Made by a program: the position numbers and the translations under genes | The notes under the pieces: model-generated | Database searches by the model: none | What the model was told of the DNA's origin: nothing | What the model saw: only the letters and a program-made list of their open reading frames with translations | NCBI GenBank assembly: GCA_030038125.1 | Contig: JASHPL010000309.1 | Coordinates: forward strand, 1-51,217 | DNA from: Candidatus Sulfotelmatobacter sp. | GTDB lineage: Bacteria; Acidobacteriota; Terriglobia; Terriglobales; Acidobacteriaceae | DNA length: 51,217 bases | Direction: 5' to 3' | Shown here: piece after piece, positions 8,172 through 42,769 of the stretch | Layout of the letters: every line of letters begins with the position of its first letter | Numbering within the stretch: position 1 is the first letter of the stretch

Positions 8172-8344
8172 CTAAGGCGTGGCCTTTAACTGCTGGGTTG
8201 ACCCCGCTTCGACTGCCAGAATTTGGTGAGAAAACTACGTGATCATGCTCACTGCATACCGCCGCCGCTTCTGCTACTCATTAAACAAAATTTAGGGGCG
8301 CTTGGTACGGGATTCAGTCGTGGTCCCCAAAGGGGGAGGGGCCA

Positions 8345-33497: not shown

Positions 33498-35579
33498 TTA
33501 ACGTTTTGGTAGTGCCGCAGCTTGCGTGCTGGCAACTTTGGCCGCCCGAGGCGCTTTAGCGGAGCGGGGTGGTGCCGTCATCTGCTTCATGATGTTCGGA
33601 TGATGCGCCCACTGAATGCTCTTCTGTGGCGGAGCGTTGTACAGTTCCGGATGCCTGTAAAATCCACGCTCATTCGCAGGCTTCATCTGTTCCACGGGGA
33701 TGCGATGCGCGTTGGCCCAGGCGTCATGCCGGATGCCGGTTACCTGCCATGAGACTTCCACGTTGGGCTTGTCGGTTTTGATCGAGAACTGATGGTTCGC
33801 GACCTTGCTGGAGACAATGGCCTGCGCGAATTGTCCCAGAACCGTCAACTGGTACCGGAAGTCCTGGTTAAGGGCCTCGAACCAATCCGGCAGGGTGACG
33901 ACTGCATCGCCCTGGGCATCGGTGGTTACGTTGCCGTTATAGATGTTCATCATATCGGGCGACTCGACGAACGAGTGATGGAGGTACTTGTTCGCTGGAT
34001 CGAGCGGATGGTCAATTTTGAATTCACCGCTGTCCTTCGACAAGTTACCTTCCACCTCCACGTCGCCGATGAATTCGCCAGCGAAGATGCTGCCATTGGC
34101 AATCAGGGCATATGGTGCCTCACCGACCAGCCCGGCACTCTCCGATGTGCTGACCGTGCCATAAATCGCGATGGAGTCCGTGGCCTGGTTCGTACCGTAC
34201 ACTCCGTAACCATCTCCGCTGTTGCTGAAGCCGTATATGCCAGGGCCGCTATTGCTAAATCCAGTAACGCCATTGCCTGTCTCGGCAGTGCCGAAGACGC
34301 CTGAGTTCGAATCGGTGCCCCCCAGAATGGCTGCGTCCACGGTGGTGTTGACGTCAAGTGCAATGTTGGCCGTGGTGTTGATGTTCATGGTGGTCGCGTT
34401 GATGTTGCTGGCAGTAAAACTGCCGGTAGAATCGCGCTTGACGATGGCGTCGGGAGTGTCGTTCGGGGTGGGAGCGGTGTTCCAGTTCAGAGCCAGCGTG
34501 CCGCTGGTCGTGACTGGTGAGCCGCTAACGATGAAGTCCGAACTGGGGGCGCTCAGTGCAACGCTGCTCACCCCGCCAGTGCCCACTCCCGGGAACTTCT
34601 GCCCCGCAGCAAAGGTGATCTGACCGTTGCCGGCGATTTTCAGGCCGGTCTCGGTCGGAGCATTCGATCCCACGCTGTGCAGCAGGTTCAGGGTTCCACT
34701 GGCGCTGGTGGTGTCGTTGCTGATGGGCTCCGCTTGCCAGCGGAAATTCTGATTGACCGCGGCTTTCGTGCCGCTATTGTAGGACGATGCCGTAAACCCG
34801 AGCGGTTGCGAGTTCTTGCCTGCAGCCGTGGTCGCCGTCCCGGTCGCCGGCAGGTTCAGCAGTCCGCGCACAGTGGCGGCGCCATTGACGTCCAGAGTAG
34901 AGGCCGGCGCAGTGGAATTGACGCCGATTTTGGCGGTGCTTCCTGAGCCGCTCTGAAACAGCACAGAATTGCCCAAGCCCCCGGTCGTGTTGGTCCAGAG
35001 CGGAAGGAAGTCGGTTGTGCCCGTACCGCTCACGGCTGGCGTAACCGTGCTCGCAGGACTCGCAGCTGCACTGCTCGAAACACTGGCACTGGCCGGCATG
35101 GCCAGCATGAAGGCGGATGCCGGCAGTCCCCCCACGGTCTCGGCATCCGCAGCTTTCAAGGCGTAAGGGACGCTCAGCAGCAGCACTCGCGGCTGTTCTT
35201 CCTCGGAATTGATGCGTACTGCCAGCCAGCGTGCTTCGCCCGAAGTAAACAGATCAAGGGGCAAGCCTTCCGAGCTGGTCGCACCCAACTGCACCGTGTA
35301 GTAGCCTTTGGCGTCGGCAGTTATGTTCTGGGTTTCCATCCACAACGGAGCGCCCCCGGATTGTTCGCTGTAGATCGAAAAGGTTGCGCCGGCGGTTCCC
35401 GAGAGGATCTTACCCTCGGCATCGAGGGCTTTGCCGGAGTAGTTCACCAGACGGGGAACCACGGCGGAGGCCTGGGCAGGCGGTAAAGTCTGCGATGAGA
35501 CGGATTGAGCGGCTGCCAGGGAGCAGAGGCAGGCAGCGGTCAGACAAATTGAGAGCACACGTCGGGTGATAGCGGTCAT
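33498..35579 (-). CDS. Large exported tail-fibre-like / surface protein
   Basis: 693 residues, signal peptide (RRVLSICLTAACLCSLAAAQ). Residues ~45-150 form a beta domain common in acidobacterial secreted proteins (VPRLVNYSGKALDAEGKILS; RVLLLSVPYALKAADAET). The middle is low-complexity, with ASTLDVNGAATVRG, GSFTASNI and a Gly-rich run (GVFGTAETGNGVTGFSNSG), as in trimeric phage tail fibres. The C-terminal ~180 residues begin FKIDHPLDPANKYLHHSFVE, pass through LPDWFEALNQDFRYQLTV and reach VSWQVTGIRHDAWANAHRIP. I recall this block from unrelated bacteria as an uncharacterised conserved region. The ATG at 35579 has GAGGAGG upstream. No phage genes are nearby, so it is probably a cell-surface or secreted protein. 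Confidence 0.72.
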   Translation of the reverse strand: MTAITRRVLSICLTAACLCSLAAAQSVSSQTLPPAQASAVVPRLVNYSGKALDAEGKILSGTAGATFSIYSEQSGGAPLWMETQNITADAKGYYTVQLGATSSEGLPLDLFTSGEARWLAVRINSEEEQPRVLLLSVPYALKAADAETVGGLPASAFMLAMPASASVSSSAAASPASTVTPAVSGTGTTDFLPLWTNTTGGLGNSVLFQSGSGSTAKIGVNSTAPASTLDVNGAATVRGLLNLPATGTATTAAGKNSQPLGFTASSYNSGTKAAVNQNFRWQAEPISNDTTSASGTLNLLHSVGSNAPTETGLKIAGNGQITFAAGQKFPGVGTGGVSSVALSAPSSDFIVSGSPVTTSGTLALNWNTAPTPNDTPDAIVKRDSTGSFTASNINATTMNINTTANIALDVNTTVDAAILGGTDSNSGVFGTAETGNGVTGFSNSGPGIYGFSNSGDGYGVYGTNQATDSIAIYGTVSTSESAGLVGEAPYALIANGSIFAGEFIGDVEVEGNLSKDSGEFKIDHPLDPANKYLHHSFVESPDMMNIYNGNVTTDAQGDAVVTLPDWFEALNQDFRYQLTVLGQFAQAIVSSKVANHQFSIKTDKPNVEVSWQVTGIRHDAWANAHRIPVEQMKPANERGFYRHPELYNAPPQKSIQWAHHPNIMKQMTAPPRSAKAPRAAKVASTQAAALPKR

Positions 35580-35731
35580 GGTGACCTCCTCTAGGTCGTG
35601 ATTCAATTTCAGAGCCCCAGCAGGAACCGGGAGAAGGTTTGAGAGTTCCTGTTTCTACTGAGGAAATCGGAAACCCCAGGCAGAAGACGACAGGAAGTCT
35701 GGAAATTTCTGAGAACTCGACTTCATACCTT

Positions 35732-35745
35732 GTGACTCAGATCAC
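35732..35745. promoter_or_regulatory. CRP/FNR-type operator upstream of the COG2403 gene
   Basis: T-GTGA-CTCAGA-TCAC-C is a GTGA-N6-TCAC dyad of the CRP/FNR kind, 80 bases before the GTG start at 35825. A candidate -10, TGTAAT (35790-35795), would put the dyad centre about 63 bases upstream of the start point, the class I activator position. Almost the same 14-mer occurs at 41752-41765 before the carbamoyl-phosphate operon. Confidence 0.6.
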
Positions 35746-35824
35746 CCTTAGAAGCGACCATTGTCACCGCTGCAAGTGACTCCTTCGGCTGTAATGGTAG
35801 GAAGAAAAAACGAAGGGGGTGTCC

Positions 35825-37162
35825 GTGACAAGCAAGAGGATCTTGATTCTTGGTGCCGCTGGGAGAGACTTTCACAACTTCAATGTGGTATTTCGCGACA
35901 AGCCCGACTATTACGTCGTAGGCTTCACTGCAACCCAGATCCCTGGGATCGCCAACCGTACCTACCCTCCCGAACTGTCAGGGGCCTTGTACCCGAGCGG
36001 AATCCCCATTTTCGAAGAAAAGGATTTAGAACAGCTGATTCACGATCACCGCATCGATGCTGTGGTGTTTTCCTACAGCGATATCTCTTACCAGAATCTG
36101 ATGCATCTGGCTTCGCGTACCGTAGCGTCAGGAGCGGATTTCTGGCTTTTGGGGTCGGAACGCACGCAGGTGAAATCGTCGGTCCCAGTTGTGTCGATCT
36201 GCGCCGTGCGGACAGGATGCGGCAAGAGCCCGCTCTGCCGATTGGTCGCCTCCGAATTGAAGCGTGAGGGCTGGAATCCCGTGGTCGTGCGCCATCCCAT
36301 GCCTTACGGCGATCTGGCGTCGCAGGCCGTGCAACGATTTGCCACGATGAGAGACCTCGACCTGCAGGAATGCACGATTGAAGAACGCGAGGAATACGAA
36401 CCCCACCTGCGCACAGGTACGGTGGTCTACGCAGGAGTAGATTACGAAAGAATCCTGCGGCAAGCGGAAATGGAGGCGGATCTGATCATCTGGGATGGGG
36501 GCAATAACGACACCCCATTCTACGTTTCTGATCTTGAAATCGTGGTTGTCGATCCGCACCGCCCCGGTCACGAGCTGGCCTATTTTCCTGGGGAAGTCAA
36601 CTTGCGTCGCGCGGGGGTGGTGGTGATCAATAAAGTTGATACCGCGGTGCCGTCGAATCTGGAAAAGGTTCGGCGGAATGTCCGCCTCAGCAATCCCCAT
36701 GCTACGGTTGTTGAAACCGCTTGCCGCGTAACGGCTTCGGCGCCCGAACTTGTGAAAGGCCACAGGGTTCTGGTCGTCGAAGATGGTCCAACACTCACCC
36801 ATGGCGAGATGCCTTATGGAGCTGGCGTAGTGGCGGCGCGGCAATGCGGCGCCGCGGAGTTGGTCGATCCGCGCCCCTTCGCGGTTGGATCGCTGCGTTC
36901 CACCTACGAACGCTATGCTCACCTCACCAATCTGCTGCCCGCGATGGGATATAGCGCGACACAGCGGGAAGAATTGGAGCAGACCATCAATCGCGTCGAT
37001 TGTGACCTGGTCCTGGTGGCAACCCCGATCGACTTGGGCCATCTGCTCAGGCTAAACAAGCCGACTGTGCGCGTAAGTTATGAAGTGGAAGAGGTGAGCG
37101 ATCCTGGCTTGGTCGAACTCCTGCGAAAATTCGCTGCCGCACACAAGCCCTCGATTGTCTAG
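35825..37162 (+). CDS. COG2403 GTPase, cyclic 2,3-diphosphoglycerate synthetase family
   Basis: 445 residues. The opening RILILGAAGRDFHNFNVVFR is the family signature. A Walker-A-like RTGCGKSP is at 129-136, DGGNNDTPF at 224-232 (in place of a Walker-B/G3 motif), and NKVD at 269-272 is a standard guanine-binding motif. The N-terminal ~115 residues look like a Rossmann unit, and the C-terminus carries a third region (YGAGVVAARQCGAAELVDPR). The archaeal prototype makes cyclic 2,3-bisphosphoglycerate with ATP; the bacterial members have no proven role, and the NKVD motif suggests GTP. The GTG at 35825 has GGGGG 5 bases upstream; a GTG two codons earlier overlaps that site. It converges on, and shares a regulatory motif with, the carbamate-kinase operon. 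Confidence 0.8.
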   Translation: MTSKRILILGAAGRDFHNFNVVFRDKPDYYVVGFTATQIPGIANRTYPPELSGALYPSGIPIFEEKDLEQLIHDHRIDAVVFSYSDISYQNLMHLASRTVASGADFWLLGSERTQVKSSVPVVSICAVRTGCGKSPLCRLVASELKREGWNPVVVRHPMPYGDLASQAVQRFATMRDLDLQECTIEEREEYEPHLRTGTVVYAGVDYERILRQAEMEADLIIWDGGNNDTPFYVSDLEIVVVDPHRPGHELAYFPGEVNLRRAGVVVINKVDTAVPSNLEKVRRNVRLSNPHATVVETACRVTASAPELVKGHRVLVVEDGPTLTHGEMPYGAGVVAARQCGAAELVDPRPFAVGSLRSTYERYAHLTNLLPAMGYSATQREELEQTINRVDCDLVLVATPIDLGHLLRLNKPTVRVSYEVEEVSDPGLVELLRKFAAAHKPSIV

Positions 37163-37239
37163 AGCGAATCAGCAAAGGGTGTGACCCGGGCCGATCGGGA
37201 AGGCCCCGGGGATTCGTGCCCTTCCCTTAGTCCAGGGCT

Positions 37240-37270
37240 CCCACGTCTCGCAAAACCGGCGGGACATGGG
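37240..37270. repeat. Palindrome between convergent COG2403 gene and rocD
   Basis: CCCACGTCTCGC (37240-37251) and GCGGGACATGGG (37259-37270) pair over 12 positions with one mismatch and one G-T pair; loop AAAACCG. The form CCCAC-CTCGC-AAAA-GCGAGA-TGGG is one I recognise as an abundant acidobacterial intergenic palindrome. Here it may terminate both transcripts. Confidence 0.6.
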
Positions 37271-37324
37271 CGGCCCAGTTGCTTTTTTCCTGTAAAGCTA
37301 TTCAGCGGCGCCGCCGCAAGGTCC

Positions 37325-38533
37325 TCAAGACTCCAGCACCTTGCGAATGCGGTCGCAGGCCCAGTCAATTTCTTCTTTCCTAATGGTCAGCGGAGGCGCA
37401 ATTCGTATCACGCGGTCATGCGTCTCCTTGCAGAGTAGGCCTTCGTCCTTCAGCGCTTCACAATAAGGCCGCGCCGCCGAGTGCAGCTCAATTCCAATCC
37501 AGAGTCCTTTGCCTCGAACTTCTTTCACCTTCGGGCTATGAATGGTCCGTAGGTGATAGATGAAATATTCTCCCATCAGCGCCGATCGTTTCACCAAGTC
37601 TTCTTCGATCAAGACGCGCAGTGCGGTGCGAGCCACCGCACATCCCAGGGGGTTACCGCCGAAGGTGCTCCCGTGATCTCCAGGATGAAAGACACCGAAG
37701 ATTTCCGCCGACGCCAACACAGCCGAGACGGGATAAAAGCCGCCTGCCAGCGCTTTACCAATGATGAGAACATCGGGCGTGATTCCTTCATGCATGTAGG
37801 CAAAGAGTTCGCCCGTGCGTCCCAGGCCGGACTGAATTTCGTCGCACATCAGGAGCACACGATGCTCGCGGCAAATTTTCGCAACTTCTTTGAGATATCC
37901 CGCCGGCGGAATAATGATTCCCGCCTCACCCTGGATCGGCTCAACCAGAAAGGCGCAGGTATTCGGGGTGATCGCCTCGGCTAAGGCGCGAGAATTTCCA
38001 TACGGAATGATTTTGAATCCCGGAGTAAACGGTCCAAATCCGTCGCGGTACTGCGCGTCGCTGGAAAAACTCACAATGGACACAGTGCGGCCGTGGAAAT
38101 TGTTTTCGCAAACTACAATTTCCGCCTTTCCGTCCGGAATGCCTTTCACTTTGTAACCCCATTTCCGCGCGACCTTGACGGCTGTCTCCACCGCTTCAGC
38201 GCCGGAATTCATGGGCAACGCCATTTCAAAGCCTGTCAGTTCATGCAGGTCACGGTAAAGCAGTGGCAATTGGTCGTTGCGGAAGGCGCGGGATGTGAGC
38301 GTCACCTTATGGGCCTGCTCGATCAAAGTCGCAAGAATTCGCGGATGGCAATGCCCCTGATTCACGGCAGAATAGGATGCGAGGCAGTCGAGATAACGCT
38401 TGCCTTCGATGTCATACACCCACACGCCCTCGGCGCGCTCAATGACCACGTCGAGAGGGTGATAGTTGTGGGCTCCAAAACGATTCTCCAGTTCGATCAA
38501 TTCCTGGGTTTGAGTTGCTTCCAATACCGACAT
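37325..38533 (-). CDS. rocD: Ornithine aminotransferase (ornithine-oxo-acid transaminase)
   Basis: PLP enzyme converting ornithine and 2-oxoglutarate to glutamate 5-semialdehyde and glutamate. 402 residues, class III aminotransferase: [19 protein letters not shown] (the NYHPL start is typical of RocD rather than ArgD), [48 protein letters not shown] and the PLP lysine in [11 protein letters not shown] (Lys260). It is the last of four same-strand genes; GAGGAGA precedes its ATG, 23 bases after the carbamoyltransferase-like gene. With the two genes at the head of the operon it would clear ornithine released from citrulline. It could alternatively act as an acetylornithine aminotransferase, but the N-terminus speaks against it. 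Confidence 0.88.
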
Positions 38534-38556
38534 GGGTTCTCCTCGACTGCATCGAT

Positions 38557-39537
38557 TTAATTCTTGTCTAGAAGCATGGTTAACAATGCCATGCGGACAT
38601 AAAGACCATTGGCTGCCTGTCGAAAATAGAGGGCGCGGGGATCGTCGTCGACAGTCCGATCCAATTCCACCGTGCGCGGCAGCGGATGCAGTATCAAGGC
38701 ATCCGATTTCATTTTTCGCAGTAATTCCGAATCCACGGCGTATCGCTTGGCACCGCGCTCGTTTGTTACGCGCTCGGGGCGAATTCGGGTCAGGTAAACC
38801 ACGTCCACTTCTCTGATTACGCGATCGATCTCCGACTCCAGCTCATATCGAACGCCGTGTTCCTCGAGGTAGGCGAGGATGTCTGGCTTCATCTGCAATT
38901 CAGGCGGCGCAACAAAGAAAATTTTGACTCGCTCGAACTTGGCCAGCAGATAGGCCAGCGACCGCGCCGTCCGCCCGCGATCGAGTTCTCCAATGATGGC
39001 GACACTAAGTCCCCCCAAAGGCCGCTCGCGATAGATCGTGTACAGATCGAGCAGCGCCTGAGTTGGATGCTGGCCCCCGTCGCCATCTCCGGCGTTGATG
39101 ATGGGTACGGCGGAAACGTCGGCGGCGCGCTCAGCTCCTCCCGCGTGCAAGTGACGCACGACAATCACGTCGGCATAGTTCGCCAGGATGCGGATGGAGT
39201 CTTCGAGGTGTTCACCGGAAATTTCGGACGAGAAAATCGACGCTTGCTCGGTAGAAAGAACTTTGCCGCCCAGCCGGTACATCGCCGCTTCAAAGCAAAA
39301 ACGAGTCCGAGTCGACGCCTGATAGAACAGGCTGGCGAGAATTTTGTTCTGATATTCAAGCGTACCGCCGCGCGCCACGACCCGTTCCATGCCGCGCGAG
39401 CGCTGAAACAGCTCCATTAACAGCGGCACCGTGAACTGTTGCGACTCGATCACATGTTTTAATTGCAGAATCTCATCTCTGATTTCCCGCCGATGATAGG
39501 GAGGGACGGGCTTCAGCGATGGATTGGAACTCGCCAT
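38557..39537 (-). CDS. Aspartate-carbamoyltransferase paralogue with altered active site
   Basis: 326 residues of the ATCase type. Carbamoyl-phosphate residues are kept: STRTR (75-79), the Arg in VVRH, HPTQ (157-160), the Arg in RGRTARS, and HPLPR (284-288), with the ATCase-like end [16 protein letters not shown]. Aligned by eye to the Escherichia coli catalytic chain, the 80s-loop Lys84 (GKKGET) becomes Ser107 (EISGEH), and Gln231, which contacts aspartate (TRVQKER), becomes Arg253 (TRIRPER). Lys84 is essential in known ATCases, so the acceptor amine is probably not aspartate, or the reaction differs. GGAGG precedes the ATG, 5 bases after arcC. It is usually annotated pyrB; I withhold that symbol. 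Confidence 0.82.
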
Positions 39538-39542
39538 GAACC

Positions 39543-40532
39543 TTAGCCTCCTACATGAATTTCTCGCTCTGCCAAAGCGGCCTCGAAAAGCGTCAGATCC
39601 GGGACAATGTGAGTTCCCGTTCGGCCCGCAACCGCATCTGTTAAGTGCTCGTACGAGGTAATCACGACCTCTTTACCACCAGCCCTGAGAAACCTCAGTG
39701 CGGACTCGATTTTCGGACCCATGTTTCCGGCAGGGAAGTGGCCAGCATGCAAATGTGCCTCCAACTCGCAAGCCGTGACCACCCGCAATTGCCGTTGCGC
39801 CGGTTTCTTGTAATCGATGTATACAAATTCCACGTCGGTGGAGATGACGAAGACGTCCATTTCCAACGCTGAAGCCAGAAGCGCAGAGGCACGGTCCTTG
39901 TCGATCACGGCCTCGACGCCCTTCAGCTCATTCCCAGAGCGAATTACCGGGATTCCGCCGCCGCCGCAGGCTACCACCAGCGCTCCTTTGTGGATCAACG
40001 AACGAACCGCATCCAACTCGACAATTTCGACCGGCTGGGGGGACGGAACCACACGCCGATAGCCGCGCGCCGCGTCTTCGACGATTTCCCACCCGAATTG
40101 GCGTTGCCGCTCTTCGGCAGACGCTCGCGAATAAAATGGTCCAATCGGCTTAGTCGGATGCCTCATCGCGGGATCGTCTTCCCGCACTATGGTCTGAGTA
40201 ATGACGCTGACTACGGGCACATTGAGGCCGGCATTTGAAAGTTCGCAGCACAGGGATTGGGAGAGCAGATAGCCAATTTCTCCCTGGCTGCACGCGCCAC
40301 AGACGTCGAGAGTCTGCCCCGGGACTTGGTCTGAGGCCCGCTCCGATCGCAACAACTGCGCTCCCACCTGTGGGCCATTTCCGTGCGTAATCACAATCTG
40401 ATAACCAGCCTTAATCAGTTCGACGATGGCTGCCGCCGTGCGCCGGGCGTTGACCCACTGTTCCGCCACAGTGCCTTTTTCGCCTGCGCGAATCAGAGAG
40501 TTACCACCGACGGCGATGAGCATCGATCTCAT
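39543..40532 (-). CDS. arcC: Carbamate kinase
   Basis: Transfers the phosphoryl group between carbamoyl phosphate and ADP, usually making ATP in catabolism. 329 residues, amino-acid-kinase fold: IAVGGNSLIRAGEKGT at the start, IVITHGNGPQVGAQLLRSE, GALVVACGGGGIPVI, EAVIDKDRASALLA, STDVEFVYIDYKKP and FPAGNMGPKIESALRFL with GRTGTHIVP near the end. Length and motifs are standard. The start could also be the ATG three codons in. It lies 9 bases after the ornithine carbamoyltransferase gene and 5 before the ATCase-like gene, so the operon is tight. Confidence 0.95.
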   Translation of the reverse strand: MRSMLIAVGGNSLIRAGEKGTVAEQWVNARRTAAAIVELIKAGYQIVITHGNGPQVGAQLLRSERASDQVPGQTLDVCGACSQGEIGYLLSQSLCCELSNAGLNVPVVSVITQTIVREDDPAMRHPTKPIGPFYSRASAEERQRQFGWEIVEDAARGYRRVVPSPQPVEIVELDAVRSLIHKGALVVACGGGGIPVIRSGNELKGVEAVIDKDRASALLASALEMDVFVISTDVEFVYIDYKKPAQRQLRVVTACELEAHLHAGHFPAGNMGPKIESALRFLRAGGKEVVITSYEHLTDAVAGRTGTHIVPDLTLFEAALAEREIHVGG

Positions 40533-40541
40533 GATCAGCTC

Positions 40542-41510
40542 TCACGAGTGACTTTCCACATCGGCGATACGTGCCGGTTCCAGCACCTCACGGTATTGCA
40601 TCAACTCCAGGAGGATGGCTTTTTGTGCGTGTAAGCGGTTCTCCGCCTGCTGATACACGACGGAATGCGCGGAGTCGATGACCTCATTCGTGACTTCTTC
40701 TCCTCGGTGCGCAGGCAGACAATGCATGAACAAAGCATCAAACTTGGCGCGGCGAAACAGTTGCGAATTCACCTGATAAGGAGCGAAAACTTTGTGCCGT
40801 GCCTCCGCTTCCTGCTCGCAACCCATACTCGTCCAGACATCGGTGTAGATAATGTCGGCGTCGCTGGCCGCCTCGACTGCATCCGGAGTCAAGGTGCAGG
40901 TTGATCCTGTTTTCTGACCCCGCTCCACGGCCCACTGAACCGCTTCTGCTTTCGGCTCGTATCCCGCAGGAGTTGCTACCCAGATGTGAGCTCCCAGCTG
41001 GGCTCCGGTAAACATGAGCGAGTGGCAGACGTTGTTGCCATCACCGATGAATGCAACCTTGAGCCCCTTCACGTTGCCCTTCAGCTCCAACATCGTCAGG
41101 TAATCCGCCATGGCCTGGCAGGGATGGCTGAAATCGGTGAGTCCGTTGATCACGGGAACGCTGGCGTACTCGGCCATCTCCTCGACGATCTCATGTGCAT
41201 AAGTGCGAATCATGATGGCTTGCACCATGCGCTCGAGATTCTTGGCAATGTCATAGACGCACTCGCGCTTCCCCAGACTGATTTCCGCGTTCGAAAGGTA
41301 CAGCGAGAATCCCCCGAGCTGTTGAATACCGACATCAAAGGAAACCCGCGTGCGCAGCGACGGTTTTTCGAAGATCATCGCCAGCGTCTTTCCCCTCAGA
41401 GCGCGGGTGTGCGCCCAAGGATGCCCCTTCATTTCTCGCGCCAAATCGAGCAGATAACTGATCTCCTCGGGTGAGAAATCACGAATGGAAAGAAAATTAT
41501 GACGACCCAT
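40542..41510 (-). CDS. argF: Ornithine carbamoyltransferase (probably catabolic)
   Basis: Interconverts citrulline plus phosphate with ornithine plus carbamoyl phosphate. 322 residues: the carbamoyl-phosphate motif is SLRTR (51-55), with HPCQ at 129-132, the ornithine-binding DVWTSMG (224-230), and HCLPAHRGEEV with HCLP at 263-266, diagnostic of OTC against ATCase. It heads the operon OTC-carbamate kinase-ATCase paralogue-ornithine aminotransferase. Linkage to carbamate kinase and ornithine aminotransferase, and absence of biosynthetic arg genes, favour a catabolic (ArcB-like) direction; sequence alone cannot prove this. The ribosome site AAGAGGTGATC before the ATG is near perfect. Confidence 0.93.
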   Translation of the reverse strand: MGRHNFLSIRDFSPEEISYLLDLAREMKGHPWAHTRALRGKTLAMIFEKPSLRTRVSFDVGIQQLGGFSLYLSNAEISLGKRECVYDIAKNLERMVQAIMIRTYAHEIVEEMAEYASVPVINGLTDFSHPCQAMADYLTMLELKGNVKGLKVAFIGDGNNVCHSLMFTGAQLGAHIWVATPAGYEPKAEAVQWAVERGQKTGSTCTLTPDAVEAASDADIIYTDVWTSMGCEQEAEARHKVFAPYQVNSQLFRRAKFDALFMHCLPAHRGEEVTNEVIDSAHSVVYQQAENRLHAQKAILLELMQYREVLEPARIADVESHS

Positions 41511-41751
41511 GGATCACCTCTTTTGCTGAATGAGTGGAATTTGCGGATATAGGGAAGAACTCGCGTTGCTCTAGCGGTGAGGAGAGCGACAGGTTCCTGC
41601 CGAGGATGAACCTGATTCCGGCTGCGACATGAACTTCAATGTCCCACGACTCCTGCGGTTGCCGGTCGCCGCCGAGGGTGAACATAACAATGCCGAATCC
41701 ATGCTCTCGTTAGGCACAAGGCTCGTGCTATGAGAAGCATCACAACAGGGG
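41511..41751 (-). promoter_or_regulatory. Long leader of the carbamoyl-phosphate operon
   Basis: About 240 bases separate the operator from the argF start, much more than a simple promoter needs. They hold an inverted repeat, CAGGTTC (41590-41596) with GAACCTG (41608-41614), and a 62-codon open frame (41685 to 41497) whose end overlaps the argF start by 14 bases. The codon content of this frame is unremarkable. It could be a leader peptide or chance. Confidence 0.3.
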
Positions 41752-41765
41752 GTGACTCGGGTCAC
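41752..41765. promoter_or_regulatory. CRP/FNR-type operator upstream of the carbamoyl-phosphate operon
   Basis: GTGA-CTCGGG-TCAC differs at only two central positions from the site at 35732-35745 (GTGA-CTCAGA-TCAC). It is between the ArsR stop and the argF leader. Arginine-deiminase-type operons are known to be driven by FNR/ANR/ArcR proteins in other bacteria, which fits. Confidence 0.6.
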
Positions 41766-41800: not shown

Positions 41801-42148
41801 CTAGGGTTCCTCGATGAAGCTTCGCAGGCGTTTGAGAGCGTCGTCCCACTGCTGTGAGATCAGATCAAGGTAGGACCGGATCTCGTCCATGCGGACCTGA
41901 TCCAATTGCCAGATGCTTTCGCGGCCGCGGCGCGTACAGCGAACCAGCCCCGATTTCTCCATGACCCGCAAGTGTTTTGTTACGGCCTGGCGGGTCATTG
42001 GGAAACCGGCTCCTAGACGAGTGACGGACGATGGTCCATTCTCACAGAGCCGTGAAATCAGATCTAGGCGAGTCTGATCTCCCAACGCGGCAAACAGCGG
42101 GGCGGAGTCGGCCAACTCAGCAATTTGTTTTCGACTACGCCGCTTCAC
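41801..42148 (-). CDS. ArsR-family repressor paired with SRPBCC protein
   Basis: 115 residues, winged helix: FAALGDQTRLDLISRLCENG, TRQAVTKHLRVMEKSGLV (recognition helix) and the wing CTRRGRESIWQL. No metal-binding Cys pair. It is of the subgroup that occurs with AHSA1/SRPBCC proteins. The GTG at 42148 is preferred, overlapping the upstream gene's stop by 14 bases; a TTG five codons earlier is possible. The usual order in such pairs is regulator first; here the SRPBCC gene is first. Confidence 0.82.
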   Translation of the reverse strand: MKRRSRKQIAELADSAPLFAALGDQTRLDLISRLCENGPSSVTRLGAGFPMTRQAVTKHLRVMEKSGLVRCTRRGRESIWQLDQVRMDEIRSYLDLISQQWDDALKRLRSFIEEP

Positions 42149-42623
42149 CAAGGTGCTTCTCAAGAAGTTTCACAACCACGCCCCAACCCTGCTCGTTGGC
42201 CTCGAACGCCTTGGCGCGACGAGCCAGCGGGATCTGATCGAAGCCGGATTCAGTGACCGTAAGCAGGACGCCGTCTTTTCGCGGTTCCAAAGTAAAAACA
42301 ATCAGAGTCGTCGGTTCTTGGGAGTAATCGATCCCGGGCTCGACCGCGTGGGGATGCCAGCGAAAAGAAAGCAGACGCTCCGGATCGATGCGTTCAATTG
42401 TGATTTCGAATGGCACATGCGCGTACTGCTTCTGCGCCTTGGCCACATCCGCGTCTACAGCGGTGCCTACAATCCTGCCGCGCACGTGCGCGCCGGGAGT
42501 GAACGGTCCCTCAAACTGCACCCCAAACCAGCGTCCGAATTCGTTGGAATCCGACAACGCCTGCCAGACCCGCTTCACTGGTCCCCGCAGCAGAATCTTT
42601 TTTTCGATGCGATCCGTGCTCAA
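42135..42623 (-). CDS. SRPBCC/AHSA1-domain protein
   Basis: 162 residues with the START-like fold from the first residues: DRIEKKILLRGPVKRVWQAL, FGRWFGVQFEGPFTPG, PERLLSFRWHPHAV and the long C-terminal helix ARRAKAFEANEQGWGVVVKL. The family forms a hydrophobic cavity; no enzyme activity can be claimed. The TTG at 42623 is chosen because GGAGG is 7 bases upstream and homology begins there; an in-frame ATG 23 codons earlier has no such site. It overlaps the ArsR gene and must be co-translated with it. Confidence 0.83.
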   Translation of the reverse strand: MSTDRIEKKILLRGPVKRVWQALSDSNEFGRWFGVQFEGPFTPGAHVRGRIVGTAVDADVAKAQKQYAHVPFEITIERIDPERLLSFRWHPHAVEPGIDYSQEPTTLIVFTLEPRKDGVLLTVTESGFDQIPLARRAKAFEANEQGWGVVVKLLEKHLGEAA

Positions 42624-42769
42624 TGTGCAACCTCCAGGTTGCAGATTACCAGCTCCTCGAGGAGAGCGCAACCAAAAAGTTGCGTAATTCATTGCCCATT
42701 GAACCTGCGAGGAAGGGCAGTCCTTCCACCCGGAGCGGAACTTAGCATCTCGTAGGAGAAATCGAAAGC

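Follow-up and report, generated by a model that had tools for sequence, protein, structure and literature searches.

The locus and its operon

We analysed a stretch of 51,217 nucleotides from Candidatus Sulfotelmatobacter sp. (the window), which makes up positions 1 to 51217 of contig C7 in a genome assembly of 6.02 Mb, 494 contigs and 93% completeness. Within it, at 35732..41765, a gene for a P-loop NTPase (hereafter X), labelled COG2403-type in an earlier sequence-only reading, faces a four-gene operon of carbamoyl-phosphate and ornithine metabolism. X (35819..37162, forward strand) has a GTG start and encodes a protein of 447 amino acids; it is the part around which the system is conserved. 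The operon, on the reverse strand, encodes an ornithine carbamoyltransferase (OTC; 40542..41510), which is the genome's second copy, a carbamate kinase (CK, ArcC; 39543..40532; TIGR00746, 381.3 bits), an aspartate carbamoyltransferase (ATCase)-like protein whose 80s loop is altered and which has TRIR where TRVQ is expected (38557..39537; TIGR00670, 276.8 bits), and the ornithine aminotransferase RocD (37325..38533; TIGR01885, 547.0 bits). All four exceed their NCBIfam cut-offs; for OTC the score is 411.7 bits against the TIGR00658 cut-off of 280.85, and its loop reads TDVWTSMG, the SMG loop being one that we take to mark the ornithine type of carbamoyltransferase.

Open reading frame coordinates give gaps of 9, 5 and 23 bases within the operon and 162 bases between the convergent X and RocD genes, and, together with the family assignments, bear out the arrangement described in the sequence-only reading. 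OTC and CK in a single unit, separated by 9 bases, are what the classical arginine deiminase (ADI) pathway of ArcA, ArcB and ArcC shows, and the locus shares with that pathway a means of ornithine disposal and, presumably, an operator of FNR/CRP-like type. It differs in that X adjoins CK or OTC, and in that ArcA has no match in the window genome or in 48 of 50 X-bearing genomes described below. Neither an arcA match (E≤1e-30) nor a DDAH-like match (E≤1e-5) was found in the window genome, where the search did not extend to agmatine deiminase or arginase, and the earlier proposal of a carbamoyl-phosphate/ornithine system without arginine deiminase agrees with this. The other OTC of the genome lies between argB and argG (contig C387) and a separate ATCase with a KGES loop is encoded on contig C49, so each of the operon's two carbamoyltransferases has a counterpart elsewhere in the genome; the ATCase-like gene is a paralogue, as had been supposed, and not the sole pyrB.

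The region runs from one GTGA-N6-TCAC dyad to another. The first, GTGACTCAGATCAC (35732..35745), begins 88 bases ahead of X, and the second, GTGACTCGGGTCAC (41752..41765), begins 255 bases ahead of OTC, confirming that both promoter regions carry the same operator-like element. Direct pattern search identified four such sites in the window against 0.68 expected, a number reached in none of 100 shuffles, and the other two (at 8239 and 49748) are distant from X and the operon genes. The stricter form GTGAC-N4-GTCAC, with one mismatch allowed, also occurs four times against 1.12 expected, and three of 100 shuffles reach this number. A dyad starting 65-100 bases ahead of X was additionally identified in the related loci L026, L112 and L113. 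Among the six loci that make up this group, L025 and L030 have it in the one-mismatch form only, and it was absent from all four further promoters that we examined, one each of L111 and L124 and two of L121. The dyad has the form typical of the CRP/FNR family, which fits control by energy or oxygen state.

Related loci differ in gene order. L025 and L026 have X-OTC-CK-ATCase-RocD, all in one direction, in L111 the order is OTC-CK-ATCase-RocD-X, and L113 has X-OTC-RocD, as does L112 with one short reading frame called between OTC and RocD; the contig of L030 ends within X-OTC. As the same genes are co-directional in these relatives, the face-to-face layout of the window probably results from the local inversion of what was one operon. 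No X, CK or ATCase match was found, at the thresholds used, in a second genome of the same genus (G084).

Distribution of X and its linkage to carbamate kinase

We identified at least 573 relatives of X by searching a profile of 12 X proteins against genome contigs. The best 80 of these, which we kept as loci, are spread over many bacterial phyla and several archaeal groups, and the closest copies of the window X among the matches listed are from Terriglobia and Acidobacteriaceae. Counting, from lists of open reading frames, the genes that share the strand of X and lie no more than 2.5 kb away, we found CK in 26 of the 80 loci, OTC in 16, either in 32 and both in 10. Other neighbours were sucC (9 loci), argS (8, in Anaerolineae only), sucD (5), pruA (4), ATCase (2) and RocD (1). 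Extending the search to CK-like reading frames within 6 kb, with looser clusters, raises the CK count to 30 loci; 26 is the figure used here. The gene maps, made with a composition-scored caller that assumes a rough average background protein composition and misses X in L076, L081 and L099, show the recurrent orders X-CK-OTC, X-CK-sucC-sucD-ndk (ndk judged by eye), pruA-X-CK and argS-X. We considered the argS-X pairing as an argument on function and set it aside as weak, being confined to the Anaerolineae.

The association extends to whole genomes. In a sample of 149 genomes from the window's phylum (the phylum sample), 90 carry X (E≤1e-10) and 96 carry CK (E≤1e-40), with both in 88, X only in 2, CK only in 8 and neither in 51 (Fisher test 1e-28, ignoring relatedness). 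Of the 88 genomes that have both, 50 have X less than 3 kb from CK, irrespective of strand; one CK place was taken per genome, and the nine omitted places, on other contigs or far away, have no effect on this count. We also selected, by hand, 50 X genomes represented in the 80 loci. Of these, 43 have CK (E≤1e-30; 32 over the cut-off), compared with 2 of 14 controls, and 47 have an OTC over the cut-off. CK is linked to X in 16 of these 50, so that 27 of the remaining 34 carry it elsewhere in the genome.

The linkage of X to CK is the firm result of this analysis, and the co-occurrence on which the sequence-only reading depended reaches far beyond close relatives. Common descent alone is an unlikely reason for X standing beside CK, given that the linkage crosses phyla, although this was judged without a tree-aware test. 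Among the papers listed by the literature searches none evidently treated X together with carbamate kinase, and none was found for the term 'COG2403'.

In two haloarchaeal plasmids CK and X are divergent, and in a third both genes are broken. An annotated haloarchaeal record names the pair carbamate kinase and cyclic 2,3-diphosphoglycerate synthase, and universal stress proteins surround them. The broken pair lies on a Salinigranum plasmid (L155, 6007-9041) with an IS1595 transposase between the two genes, which appear to decay together.

Sequence and relatives of the X protein

X matched no NCBIfam model (E≤1e-3), and the sole Pfam match of the window protein was LpxK, at 25.9 bits just below the cut-off of 27. 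Across 39 X proteins, Pfam matches (E≤0.01) were to cobW/CobW-HypB-UreG in 31, LpxK in 14, CbiA in 6 and MeaB in 5. Against the PDB, the X profile retrieved cyclic 2,3-diphosphoglycerate (cDPG) synthetases (9sxb, E=2.4e-9; 8oru, E=2.4e-6) and, weakly, HypB, making cDPG synthetase the nearest solved relative, with homology that covers the nucleotide domain. X resembles these synthetases (PDB 8ork, 8oru and 9sxb) in its Walker A motif and in length (447 against 436-460 amino acids), and differs from them in losing two P-loop substrate contacts, in having an NKxD-like motif, and in its genomic partners and host organisms. With CobW/HypB/UreG and LpxK it shares a nucleotide-binding core, beyond which it has its own conserved N-terminal region and its own set of invariant columns.

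The family is strongly conserved. The window protein is 57-76% identical to 38 X proteins from across the phyla, and the alignment of 39 sequences contains 98 invariant columns, with the motifs R-T-G-x-G-K-S, R-H-P-M-P-Y-G, T-x-E-E-x-E-x-Y, W-D-G-G-N-N-D, E-D-G-P-T-x-T-H-G and an NKxD-like motif (N in 36, K in 39 and D in 29 of the 39). Walker A is invariant at G133-x-G135-K136-S137. In comparison, the window CK is 42-50% identical to the linked CKs in 24 of 26 loci, below the 57-77% seen for X in that comparison. The invariant residues include the acidic E188, E189, E191, D226 and D231 and the arginines R16, R158 and R248, a set compatible with a zwitterionic, cationic substrate. Its conserved residues being different, and partly acidic, X is a sister family of the cDPG synthetases.

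That X is itself a cDPG synthetase we hold to be extremely improbable. Homology favours it, as do the public annotation of one haloarchaeal relative and the order GAPDH-X-PGK in one genome (read by eye). However, the P-loop substrate contacts of the synthetase, reported as K145 and R146 in PMC10690619 and the only contacts that could be aligned, correspond to T132 and G133 of X, which are invariant in 39 of 39 sequences, although the alignment is weak here and anchored on Walker A. According to that paper the product is confined to hyperthermophilic methanogens, and the recurrent genomic partners of X are CK and OTC. We therefore rejected a simple assignment of X as cDPG synthetase on residues and genomic context.

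A second possibility is that X, instead of catalysing a step of the pathway, is a GTP-binding regulator or assembly factor which, depending on the nucleotide state, would control the labile carbamoyl phosphate or channel it between the two enzymes OTC and CK. The CobW/HypB/UreG and MeaB families include GTPase chaperones, and both the Pfam matches of X to them (31 and 5 of 39 proteins) and its NKxD-like motif are consistent with this idea, which would also account for CK being the commonest partner whether or not OTC is present, and for genomes that combine X with an arcA-like gene. In contrast, the conservation of X in excess of that of CK and its 98 invariant columns suit an enzyme pocket, its nearest solved relatives are synthetases, and a regulator would provide no citrulline source for the 13 genomes without argG or known deiminases considered below; we regard this explanation as plausible but unlikely. 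The term GTPase, applied to X in the sequence-only reading, is partly borne out: the profiles indicate a P-loop NTPase of CobW/HypB/UreG-LpxK type with an NKxD-like motif (aspartate in 29 of 39), but the solved structures closest to X are those of small-molecule synthetases.

Deiminases, argG and the source of citrulline

We investigated which genomes with X have another source of citrulline. Among the 96 CK-containing genomes of the phylum sample, X occurs in 64 that lack an arcA match and in 24 that have one; a further 7 have arcA without X and 1 has neither. An arcA-like gene was found in 4 of the 50 genomes in which X lies within 3 kb of CK, compared with 20 of the 38 others (p=5e-6, ignoring relatedness). 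Neither an arcA nor a DDAH match was present in 46 of the 88 genomes with X and CK. None of the 31 arcA-like matches in this sample reached the curated cut-off, leaving their own function unsure.

Of the 50 chosen X genomes, 2 have arcA (E≤1e-20), 9 a DDAH-like gene and 14 agmatine deiminase, and argG (E≤1e-20) is present in only 23, compared with 14 of 14 controls. In 13 of them we found CK and an OTC over the cut-off together with no argG and no arcA, DDAH-like or agmatine deiminase match; PF02274, argH and arginase were not searched. Two of the 13 (L090 and L091) are on records titled chromosome. As most X genomes are metagenome assemblies, single absences are weak, and it is the pattern that carries the argument. 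Lacking argG, these genomes cannot use their OTC in the usual synthesis of arginine, and their citrulline source is unaccounted for unless X supplies it. The surroundings of OTC, read by eye in 10 of the 13 (some on short contigs), show no evident neighbour of arginine biosynthesis, and in the other three OTC lies near X.

We tentatively favour, at a little under an even chance, the reading that the locus encodes a route of arginine fermentation without arginine deiminase, with X as the citrulline-forming enzyme. X would carry out a nucleotide-linked deimination of arginine to citrulline, OTC would split citrulline by phosphorolysis into ornithine and carbamoyl phosphate, CK would convert carbamoyl phosphate to ATP, and RocD would lead ornithine towards glutamate and succinate; in other genomes pyrroline-5-carboxylate dehydrogenase, 2-oxoacid oxidoreductase and succinyl-CoA synthetase may also carry ornithine onward. 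For OTC, CK and RocD we take the roles predicted from their families, and we infer the step catalysed by X, its direction and its use of GTP. The recurrence of RocD, pruA and sucCD near X counts in favour of this reading, as does the SMG loop found in 15 of 16 full-length OTC genes near X. According to a review (PMC6022934), the established catabolic transcarbamylases are of ornithine, putrescine and ureidoglycine types, and their genes usually lie near CK.

Several observations weigh against arginine fermentation through X. Neither CK nor OTC was found on the same strand within 2.5 kb of X in 48 of the 80 loci, and 7 of the 50 chosen genomes show no CK. An arcA-like gene is present in 24, and a DDAH-like gene in 20, of the 88 phylum genomes with X and CK; in G029 arcA adjoins CK and X lies elsewhere, and in L125 a DDAH-like gene follows X. 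The Pfam scan of the 39 X proteins matched no guanidino-modifying family. No OTC was found within 8 kb of the haloarchaeal X-CK pair, CK of some Anaerolineae and of one Caldisericaceae genome lies instead in a seemingly ureide or purine operon, and X adjoins other genes of energy metabolism in single genomes (GAPDH and PGK in L096, an FBPase in L102; by eye). Finally, a deimination that spends GTP would cancel the gain in ATP.

One form of the favoured route would make X a reversible amidoligase resembling CTP synthase and working catabolically, converting arginine, GDP and phosphate to citrulline, ammonia and GTP. We think this form distinctly unlikely. If it were correct, arginine would give two nucleoside triphosphates and not one, several steps of substrate-level phosphorylation would be brought together in the X-CK-sucC-sucD-ndk operons, and genomes without argG could make arginine from citrulline by the same enzyme.

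The analogy with CTP synthase also suggests a purely biosynthetic alternative, in which X would be an NTP-dependent ligase forming arginine from citrulline and ammonia in place of ArgG and ArgH, with carbamoyl phosphate supplied by CK or carbamoyl-phosphate synthetase. The 27 of 50 X genomes without argG, 26 of which have an OTC over the cut-off, argue for such an enzyme, as does the inclusion among them of 5 of the 7 genomes without CK. In one CK-less genome (G168, locus L172) OTC follows a RocD/ArgD-like aminotransferase, and 6 of the 39 X proteins match CbiA; the fold group of X includes ATP-dependent amide-forming enzymes. Nevertheless, ArgG is already present in 23 of the 50 genomes and in the window genome, where argB-OTC-argG stand together, and RocD belongs to the window operon and to related ones, just as pruA or sucCD does in other loci. 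The 10 genomes without an evident arginine-biosynthesis neighbour at OTC, and the 3 with OTC near X, further argue against the ligase, and the SMG loop is missing from OTC in the two Bathyarchaeota that have no CK. On balance we find the ligase improbable.

Alternatively, citrulline or a ureido compound could come from outside the cell or from an unrecognised enzyme, with X, together with the altered ATCase, handling another carbamoylated or acyl-phosphate metabolite, as the sequence-only reading had it. Such a substrate would be consistent with the haloarchaeal pair, for which no OTC was found within 8 kb, with CK in the ureide-like operons of some Anaerolineae, and with the altered 80s loop and TRIR of the ATCase in four loci. 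It is at odds with the SMG loop of 15 of the 16 OTCs near X, and close relatives of the ATCase paralogue were found in few Acidobacteriota; we consider this reading decidedly unlikely.

Without X, CK and OTC in these genomes have no assigned citrulline source. If X does form citrulline from arginine, as in the route we favour, a function would follow for a family of at least 573 relatives, one of them publicly named as a cyclic 2,3-diphosphoglycerate synthase. This would represent new chemistry for the P-loop fold, and would explain a possible arginine-based life of many uncultured anaerobes and archaea.

The ATCase paralogue

The third gene of the operon retains the STRTR, HPTQ and HPLPR motifs of PyrB and passes the TIGR00670 cut-off, and differs from PyrB at two positions that we take, from their roles in Escherichia coli, to belong to the active site (the 80s-loop lysine, K84, and the TRVQ glutamine, Q231). 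Lysine is replaced by serine or glutamate and glutamine by arginine in all four members identified (the window, L025, L026 and L111), in which the 80s loop reads SSEI, then S-G, E-A or E-V, then E, and TRIR stands where TRVQ is usual. The other ATCase of the window genome, in comparison, has the KGES loop and LRVQ. Matches to the paralogue (E≤1e-60) occur in 9 of the 149 phylum genomes, and only the window genome (100%) and G143 (71%) exceed 47% identity.

The sequence-only reading had treated the altered carbamoyltransferase as a core part of the system. We rejected this, since among the loci examined it stands beside X only in these same four, whereas many phyla have X paired with CK or with OTC; the paralogue is a local addition that the system of X, CK and OTC does not need elsewhere. 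Of that reading as a whole, the carbamoyl-phosphate/ornithine system lacking arginine deiminase was upheld, and the altered ATCase as one of its essential parts was not.

Other genes in the neighbourhood of X and carbamate kinase

We additionally noted further genes in individual lineages. In four Aminicenantes loci (L034, L042, L050 and L091) a family without a name, of 508-744 amino acids with some members cut by contig ends, follows X-CK or X-CK-OTC; for its member in L042 the thresholds used gave neither a Pfam nor an NCBIfam match. In L050 (12263-13171) the place of OTC behind X and CK is taken by a gene that is only 31% identical to the window OTC and lacks the carbamoyltransferase motifs searched. 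In a Symbiobacterium locus (L069, 8994-13703) X is present twice; about 1.9 kb, holding one gene for 543 amino acids, separates the copies, and OTC adjoins them.

In three further loci, read by eye, X has other neighbours: GAPDH-X-PGK in an Elusimicrobiales genome (L096, 5783-9572), X followed by CK and an FBPase-like gene in a Stahlbacteria genome (L102, 5229-8714), and X followed by creatininase-like and pyruvate kinase-like genes in a Thermoproteota genome (L098, 9833-13486). CK lies behind a gene of the OTC family, 29-33% identical to the window OTC, in three Anaerolineales genomes and one Caldisericaceae genome (L126, L127, L128 and L130). An ATCase-like gene precedes the OTC-family gene in the Anaerolineales loci, and amidohydrolase-like genes were seen by eye in L126, L128 and L130. 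The probable role of these four clusters is the fermentation of ureides or purines.

In the window itself, X adjoins a gene on the opposite strand (33498-35606) for a protein of 702 amino acids with no Pfam match (E≤1e-3). Directly upstream of the operon, at 41801-42692, a gene for an ArsR-type regulator overlaps an AHSA1-domain gene.

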